Source: Demequina sp.
Lineage (GTDB): Bacteria; Actinomycetota; Actinomycetes; Actinomycetales; Demequinaceae
Length of the DNA: 34,302 nucleotides
Direction of reading: 5' to 3'
NCBI RefSeq assembly: GCF_024642165.1
Contig: NZ_JAHEBP010000009.1
Location: forward strand, 1-34,302
A program made the translations under genes and the position numbers. Below the pieces are notes generated by a model. It ran no database searches, was not told the DNA's origin, and worked only from the letters and a program-made list of their open reading frames with translations. Below, in pieces: positions 4,281 through 19,742 of the stretch (within the stretch, counting starts at the first letter, position 1; the number at the start of each line of letters is the position of its first letter).

Positions 4281-6046
<1,766 letters not shown>

Positions 6047-16910: not shown

Positions 16911-17792
16911 GTGACGCGGCGGCGACGCACCGTCGCCGCGCTGGCGGTGCTTGCGGTCGCCTCGGGCGCGGCGATCTACGGGATCCACCTGTGGGGCCAG
17001 TACGGCGAGCGGATCCTGCCGAGCGAGAGATGCACGGCGACGCTGGGCGAGGACGCCAACACCCTGTCCGCCGAGCAGGCGGGCAACGCGGCGCTGATCG
17101 CCGCGGCCTCGGCGCGGCTCGGGCTGCCGGCACGCGCCGCGACCATCGGCATCGCCACCGCCATGCAGGAGTCCTCGCTGATCAACATCGACTACGGCGA
17201 CCGGGACTCGTTGGGCCTGTTCCAGCAGCGGCCTTCGCAGGGCTGGGGCACCGAGGACGAGATCCTGGATCCCTACTACTCGTCGGACACCTTCTTCGCC
17301 GCGCTCGCGCGGGTCGAGGGGTGGGAGGACATGGAGGTGACCGTGGCCGCCCAGACGGTGCAACGCTCGGCATTCCCCGATGCGTACGCCCGGCGGGAAC
17401 CCGGCGCGCGCCTGTGGGCGTCGGCGCTGCGCGGGTACTCGGGTGCCGCCGCAGTCACGTGCGACGTGGGTGAGGGGGACGGGACCACGGCCCAGGAGTT
17501 CGCGGCGCGCGTGGACCGCGACTTCGGCGAGGGTCGCTACGAGGTGAGCGTGCTGAGCGCAACCTCCGAGGCGATCTGGCTCGACGTGGTTCCCGCGGGG
17601 AGCGACCAGGTGCTGGCAGCGTCGTTCGCGTCCTGGGCAGTCGCGGTCGCCGCCGACGAATCCATCGAGGCGGTCGCCAACGGCGATGCGGGGTGGGACC
17701 GCGAGCAGGGCGCCGGCGTCATCGACGTGCCGCAGCCGGCGGCGGGCATCGCGGTGCGGCTCACGCCCGTGGACCTGACGCCCGAGGGTTAG
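16911..17792 (+). CDS. Secreted/membrane-anchored protein with lysozyme-like (transglycosylase-type) region
   Basis: N-terminal TM VAALAVLAVASGAAIYGIHLWGQYG; ARAATIGIATAMQESSLINIDYGDRDSLGLFQQRPSQGWGT resembles a lysozyme-like catalytic helix. GTG start 1 nt after dapD. Confidence 0.75.
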   Translation: MTRRRRTVAALAVLAVASGAAIYGIHLWGQYGERILPSERCTATLGEDANTLSAEQAGNAALIAAASARLGLPARAATIGIATAMQESSLINIDYGDRDSLGLFQQRPSQGWGTEDEILDPYYSSDTFFAALARVEGWEDMEVTVAAQTVQRSAFPDAYARREPGARLWASALRGYSGAAAVTCDVGEGDGTTAQEFAARVDRDFGEGRYEVSVLSATSEAIWLDVVPAGSDQVLAASFASWAVAVAADESIEAVANGDAGWDREQGAGVIDVPQPAAGIAVRLTPVDLTPEG

Positions 17793-17821
17793 GTCCGGGC
17801 TCCATCGGACCGGGCACCGTC

Positions 17822-17988
17822 AGCGGTGTGGCTGAGTGTCGTTTTGAGACGCGATTCGGCTCAACGGTGTGCCTGAGTGTCGGTCTGCGACGTGGAGTCG
17901 TCTCGATCACCCGGCGTTGACGTGCACCGACACTCAGACACACCGTTGATGGATCTCGGCGCCGAAAGCGACACTCAGGCACACCGCT
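17822..17988. repeat. Intergenic element with four ~20-bp units (A,B direct; C,D inverted) in nested mirror-symmetric arrangement
   Basis: A 17822-17841 AGCGGTGTGGCTGAGTGTCG; B 17863-17883 AACGGTGTGCCTGAGTGTCGG; C 17927-17947 CCGACACTCAGACACACCGTT; D 17969-17988 CGACACTCAGGCACACCGCT. A pairs with D and B with C, one mismatch each. A-B and C-D spacers are both 21 nt. Confidence 0.92.
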
Positions 17989-18048
17989 AGTTCGCCACGT
18001 GGGTGGAACCGGGCTTCAGCGCAGGCCAACGGCGCGCGGCGCGCTCGG

Positions 18049-18336
18049 CTACGCGTCAGTGGTGTCGCGCTTGAGCTTCCTGTACTCGCGCTCGATCCGG
18101 TCCTCCGTGGGGCGGCCCAACCCGGGCAGGAAGGCCGCGGCCGCCGTGAACGCGAGCGCGATTCCCATGCCGAACATCGCCCACACGGGCCAGAAGTAGC
18201 CGCCGCCCGACATCCACCACACCACCGTGAGCATGGTCCACACCACCGCACACACCACGGCGAACCAGTAGAAGCCGGTGCGCGCCTCGACGCGCCGCTT
18301 CGCCTCGCGCCTCAGCGCGTCGTCATCCGTAGACAT
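18049..18336 (-). CDS. 2TM domain-containing small membrane protein
   Basis: MSTDDDALRREAKRRVEARTGFYWFAVVCAVVWTMLTVVWWMSGGGYFWPVWAMFGMGIALAF: 2TM-domain pattern. Confidence 0.85.
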   Translation of the reverse strand: MSTDDDALRREAKRRVEARTGFYWFAVVCAVVWTMLTVVWWMSGGGYFWPVWAMFGMGIALAFTAAAAFLPGLGRPTEDRIEREYRKLKRDTTDA

Positions 18337-18404: not shown

Positions 18405-19694
<1,290 letters not shown>

Positions 19695-19742
19695 GCTCTC
19701 CCCTTCCAACCGCCAGTCCGGTGCCAGTGCTTGGGTCCCGGT

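Follow-up and report, generated by a model that had tools for sequence, protein, structure and literature searches.

The window, the whole 34,302-nucleotide stretch of DNA that was analysed, is one 34-kb contig of a Demequina draft genome (2.2 Mb, 173 contigs, 89% complete), referred to below as the host. A repeat at positions 17822-17988 lies between two convergent genes whose 3' ends, at 17792 and 18049, face it from either side. The gene on the left (16911..17792, + strand; the gene caller alternatively places its start at 16947) encodes a secreted or membrane protein that is conserved in Demequina and for which no Pfam match was found. The gene on the right (18049..18336, - strand) encodes a 2TM-domain protein (PF13239), and a citrate synthase gene (18405-19709) is located upstream of it. 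The repeat comprises four ~20-bp units with the orientation + + - -. Units A (AGCGGTGTGGCTGAGTGTCG, 17822-17841) and B (AACGGTGTGCCTGAGTGTCGG, 17863-17883) run along the forward strand and contain the cores CAGCGGTGTGGCTGAGTGTCG (17821..17841) and CAACGGTGTGCCTGAGTGTCG (17862..17882), respectively. Units C' (17927-17947) and D' (17969-17988) run along the reverse strand, with the cores CAACGGTGTGTCTGAGTGTCG (17928..17948) and TAGCGGTGTGCCTGAGTGTCG (17969..17989). The 21-bp cores A and B are joined by the 20-bp linker TTTTGAGACGCGATTCGGCT (17842..17861) to form dimer 1 (17820..17884, +), and cores C and D, likewise with a 20-bp linker, form dimer 2 (17926..17988, -). The TTT of the linker, 3' of GTGTCG, is almost invariant among copies. 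A 43-nt centre (17884..17926) separates the two dimers. Measured between units, both spacers (A-B and C-D) span 21 nt, the start-to-start distance is 41 bp in both pairs, and A differs from D' by one base, as does B from C'. A sequence-only reading of the window had described this arrangement as a mirror-symmetric A-B-B'-A' element between convergent genes, and its anatomy proved correct to the base.

The four-unit pattern of the window is not due to chance. The 18-bp core CGGTGTGNCTGAGTGTCG, allowing up to three mismatches, matches the window four times, whereas 100 dinucleotide shuffles gave a mean of 0.36 matches and a maximum of 2, none reaching four. Both dimers were also found as direct repeats (D1 and D2), and they score 64.2 bits (E 2e-17) and 59.7 bits (E 4.8e-16), respectively, against the R1 model, which was itself built from this family. 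Genome-wide, the host contains 24 and 23 core matches on the two strands, compared with one on each strand for a reversed control pattern. The host contains 24 direct-repeat dimers, which are spread over 18 intergenic loci and share a period of 41 bp, and no isolated single core occurs among the strong matches. The dimer consensus is CAACGGTGYGNNNNNGTGTCG, then YTTT and ~16 variable bases, then CAACGGTGYGNNNNNGTGTCG again. The repeat is thus multi-copy, interspersed and intergenic, as the sequence-only reading had proposed, and neither single-copy nor coding.

The mirror arrangement is not the rule among these copies. A single dimer is present at 12 of the 18 host loci, and inverted dimer pairs occur at the other six. 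In five of these the dimers face each other as in the window, and in the sixth they face away from each other; C96, among the six, carries a trimer on one side. The period and paired orientation noted in the sequence-only reading are thus found in the family, the period in all host dimers and the pairing at these six loci. The 43-nt centre is not common to the other mirrored copies, in which the centre measures ~24 to 127 bp. The nested pairing of A with D' and B with C', described earlier as paired subtypes, exists in the window copy and is not kept in the mirrored copies C70, C88 and C96, and is thus a local feature and not a family rule.

The basic element is a dimer of ~62-68 bp, consisting of two ~20-bp direct sites placed 41 or 42 bp apart. 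Similarity between copies within one genome stops at the dimer borders, and at the host locus C169 two copies are identical over 63 bp and differ in their outer flanks. In two other Demequina genomes (G022 and G030), left sites resemble left sites (0.79-0.82) and right sites resemble right sites (0.89-0.92) among copies, whereas left and right sites are far less alike (0.61-0.69), which identifies the dimer as the copied unit. The linkers too are common to copies within a genome, with ~0.5 identity. Together, the dimer-limited homology, the distinct left and right sites and the C169 copies resolve the A-B-B'-A' mirror, which had been taken for the element itself, into a pair of dimers. At two host loci, L084 (contig C92, ~97-115) and L089 (contig C161, ~5815-5840), the element's first 13-14 bp (CATCARCGGTGCGG) occur a second time immediately upstream of a full dimer, cut at the identical base in both; this extra fragment may be a vestige of how the element is copied. 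The R3 model, which represents a subfamily described below, additionally detected host copies of another type (GAATGGGTAGACCATGGTCG...AAGGGTGGCTGAGTGTCG) at C99:2320-2378 and C109:19-77 (L351).

The repeat family is confined to Demequina, with up to ~50 copies per genome, and is apparently undescribed; the open-access literature yielded no description of repeats of this kind from Demequina or related Actinobacteria. Relatives were anticipated within the genus, and other Demequina indeed carry lineage-specific subfamilies that differ in core sequence and keep the 41/42-bp period constant. SYSU T00192 (G006) has about ten dimers with the core CAACCGTGAGGNNNNGTGACG and a period of 42 bp, D. maris (G030) and G022 each have their own subfamily, and the complete single-contig genome G001 has a third type, with the core GGGTGAGYCAGTGTCGGTTC, whose 41-bp units build head-to-tail arrays that reach 6-7 cores. 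D. maris also contains a second dimer type at L244, L246 and L333 (~1921-1985), with the core CCGTACCGCTGACGGTGCGG and a 42-bp period; these dimers adjoin the first family and some are in inverted pairs. In G022, a further subtype dimer with 41-bp spacing (GGGTAGATGGTNGTCG) is found at L250 (~1312-1372) near a GAATCGTGTCG-type dimer. Matches to R3, the model of the G001-type subfamily, with which tandem arrays are counted more than once, number 54 in G020, 43 in G022, 42 in G001, 38 in G011, 37 in D. maris and 23 in D. mangrovi (G059), and are absent in 14 of 39 Demequina genomes. A pattern of architecture only (GTGTCG-N-TT, then GTGTCG at a set distance) gave ~55 matches in sampled Demequina, where its reversed control gave none; overall the control was silent in nearly all Demequina genomes. 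Outside Demequina, across 362 genomes of the order or family, the same pattern gave 13 matches versus 12 for the control, which is background. Weak matches to the R2 model in other genera were rejected; a repeated match in G073 lies in identical copies that are coding- or insertion-sequence-like, and the remainder are as many as expected by chance over many genomes. The tandem pattern had no match in a genome-contig collection or in viral contigs, nor did the 231-bp element region match plasmids or phages.

The call of the sequence-only reading for comparison at orthologous loci was borne out by an empty site. The gene neighbouring the window element has orthologues with 62-68% protein identity in nine named Demequina, a similarity that places the host in this genus, and in these species the spacer between the convergent genes is ~5-40 bp compared with 256 bp in the window; one of them, D. 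silvatica, is missing the small 2TM gene. Four of the nine (D. mangrovi, D. maris, D. rhizosphaerae (G023) and SYSU T00192) carry the family elsewhere, so the insertion in the window is specific to the window's lineage. A search for other orthologous empty sites gave no clean one from which insertion borders or a target duplication could be read, both alignable comparisons being interrupted by unrelated inserted genes, one of which looks like a DUF222/HNH-type gene. Several intergenic regions are occupied in two species (G006/G030, G006/G026 twice, and G002/G020), and the elements at shared positions have 0.55-0.67 identity in the three pairs measured. The orthologous intergenic regions L152 of G006 and L256 of G017 hold one dimer each in opposite orientations, an arrangement that separate insertion events, or an inversion, would produce.

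Among 62 loci from all species, 32 lie between convergent genes (~19% expected; P ~1e-8) and 5 between divergent genes (~29% expected; P ~5e-5), counts that are approximate as genes were called with a simple codon-usage script that missed at least one, and loci with several dimers were counted once. The predicted bias toward 3' ends is therefore present. Copies lie on either strand relative to the genes with no consistent orientation. No gene family recurs beside the copies among the flanking genes of 43 loci, and no transposase or other partner gene was identified. In G001, the 35 of 42 matches listed leave a 1.11-Mb arc (2.40 Mb through 0 to 0.43 Mb) free of copies, with P = 0.006 for the largest gap, and this arc holds the origin inferred by GC skew; we regard the avoidance as a lead. 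Placement restricted to the terminus, as for matS, was considered and rejected, G001 copies being found on both arms, including near the skew switch.

With a probability of roughly 0.55, we interpret the repeat as a non-autonomous dispersed dimer, restricted to Demequina, that has probably spread with a putative two-site-binding protein and persists where it is least harmful. That the period stays at 41/42 bp while the sequence changes suggests that two sites are read on one face of the DNA, four turns apart. The uniformity within genomes, which includes the linkers, together with the empty window site and the distinct left and right sites, suggests that whole dimers are copied. We infer recognition at the DNA level by a protein that mobilises or homogenises the copies. 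Such a candidate protein would bind both sites of the dimer on one helix face, and the dimer would most likely spread by copying and insertion with its help. Insertions would then survive where their cost is lowest, chiefly between convergent genes. It is a tentative proposal, somewhat short of an even chance, that these dimers constitute an apparently undescribed class of non-autonomous element, in which a putative non-RAYT protein, its specificity changing from species to species, disseminates direct-repeat, two-site dimers of four-turn phase and homogenises them within each genome. Among small dispersed repeats whose mover is known, most are REP/RAYT systems. A family that is found across a genus and preserves its spacing to the base pair as its sequence changes, with no RAYT, points to a mover or binder of an unrecognised kind. 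The division of Demequina into genomes rich in matches and genomes that lack them offers gene-content comparison as a direct route to the candidate protein, and the dimer sites are usable as strain markers.

The main rival to a mobile dimer is a host binding site of drifting specificity, an explanation that we consider unlikely, yet stronger than any of those below. In this reading, a nucleoid, chromosome-organising or anti-collision protein of the host would act between convergent genes and use the copies as operators or architectural sites, and all sites would follow as the specificity of that protein drifts. Strict 41/42-bp phasing over very different cores is what such a protein might impose, and the convergent bias, with its avoidance of divergent spacers, could reflect function and not tolerance. 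The copies in the same intergenic region of two species also fit long-retained functional sites, and the G001 origin arc, free of copies among the 35 of 42 matches listed, points in the same direction. However, linkers need not be bound by such a protein, yet they are common within a genome, as copying predicts. The absence of R3 matches from 14 of the 39 genomes indicates that the system is dispensable, and nine relatives have no element at the window site.

Pairing of the mirrored dimers into a bidirectional terminator or mRNA-end hairpin, a role also raised by the sequence-only reading, is improbable. The mirrored copy of the window does fold much more stably than its shuffles, whichever strand is taken (z of about -7.7), and it is positioned between convergent genes. 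However, this hairpin is open to the mirrored minority only. Five single host dimers, tested on both strands, showed no folding beyond shuffles (z near zero), and of 12 single dimers tested most were near zero, with z <= -1.8 for the G022 and G030 examples only, never for a host dimer, and with the lower value of the G030 dimer on one strand only. The strand of the copies relative to genes is mixed, and some copies (L152, L256 and L296) adjoin separate terminator-like hairpins. A GC hairpin followed by a T-run in transcript orientation, the mark of an intrinsic terminator, was not found in the unfolded single host dimers. Rfam gave no match in the window, nor in 12 element loci except to a neighbouring tRNA. 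A hairpin pairing of core bases 1 and 20 was rejected for want of covariation in an alignment judged by eye. The lack of folding in single dimers, the mixed strand and the lack of Rfam matches make a role at the RNA level unlikely, other than as a side effect where mirrored copies fold strongly.

Equally improbable is a plain MIRU-like minisatellite that arose by slippage as a tandem duplication and was dispersed by chance. The G001 arrays and the C96 trimer are of the kind that slippage would give. However, nearly all copies are dimers, a core stands at either end of the arrays, and in G022 and G030 the left site is distinct from the right; dimers stand at many loci with inverted partners, and slippage neither disperses nor inverts.

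Identity with REP, BIME or REPIN sequences mobilised by RAYT (TnpA-REP), close to the BIME/MITE-like element that the sequence-only reading had inferred, is the least probable explanation. Intergenic placement, convergent bias, inverted pairs and lineage-specific sequence do agree with descriptions of REP families. However, a search for RAYT (PF01797) that was positive in 5 of 14 control genomes gave no match in 44 Demequina genomes, the units contain no inverted repeat and are not palindromic, and the basic unit is a direct-repeat dimer and not an inverted doublet.

The Demequina repeat resembles REP, BIME and REPIN sequences in being short, dispersed and intergenic, with a bias toward 3' ends and convergent genes, close inverted pairs and lineage-specific families. 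It differs from them in its direct-repeat dimer of fixed 41/42-bp phase, in single host units that are unfolded, and in the absence of RAYT from the genomes searched. With the palindrome and RAYT tests failed, it is not a REP/BIME by membership, despite its REP-like placement and pairing. The mirrored + + - - copies resemble a MITE of a DDE transposon with Tn7/Mu-like ends, where left and right ends carry two direct sites each. However, inverted ends are present in the mirrored minority only, most copies being single dimers without an inverted partner; a constant centre was not seen, nor was a target duplication in the two alignable comparisons, and no parent transposon was found, the flanking genes of 43 loci showing no recurring family. 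Streptococcal BOX elements are modular and intergenic, and their internal ~45-bp module is present in varying numbers. They are built of three distinct modules and fold as RNA, whereas the Demequina repeat has two near-equal sites on either side of a linker, and its single host dimers are unfolded. The mycobacterial MIRU is likewise actinobacterial and intergenic, with head-to-tail units that can extend into longer arrays; it is set apart here by description, from the generally known length and anatomy of its unit, and not by sequence. Unlike the MIRU, the Demequina repeat mostly has two sites in a 41-42 bp unit, its dimers commonly occur in inverted pairs, and its sequence is replaced between species while its spacing is kept.
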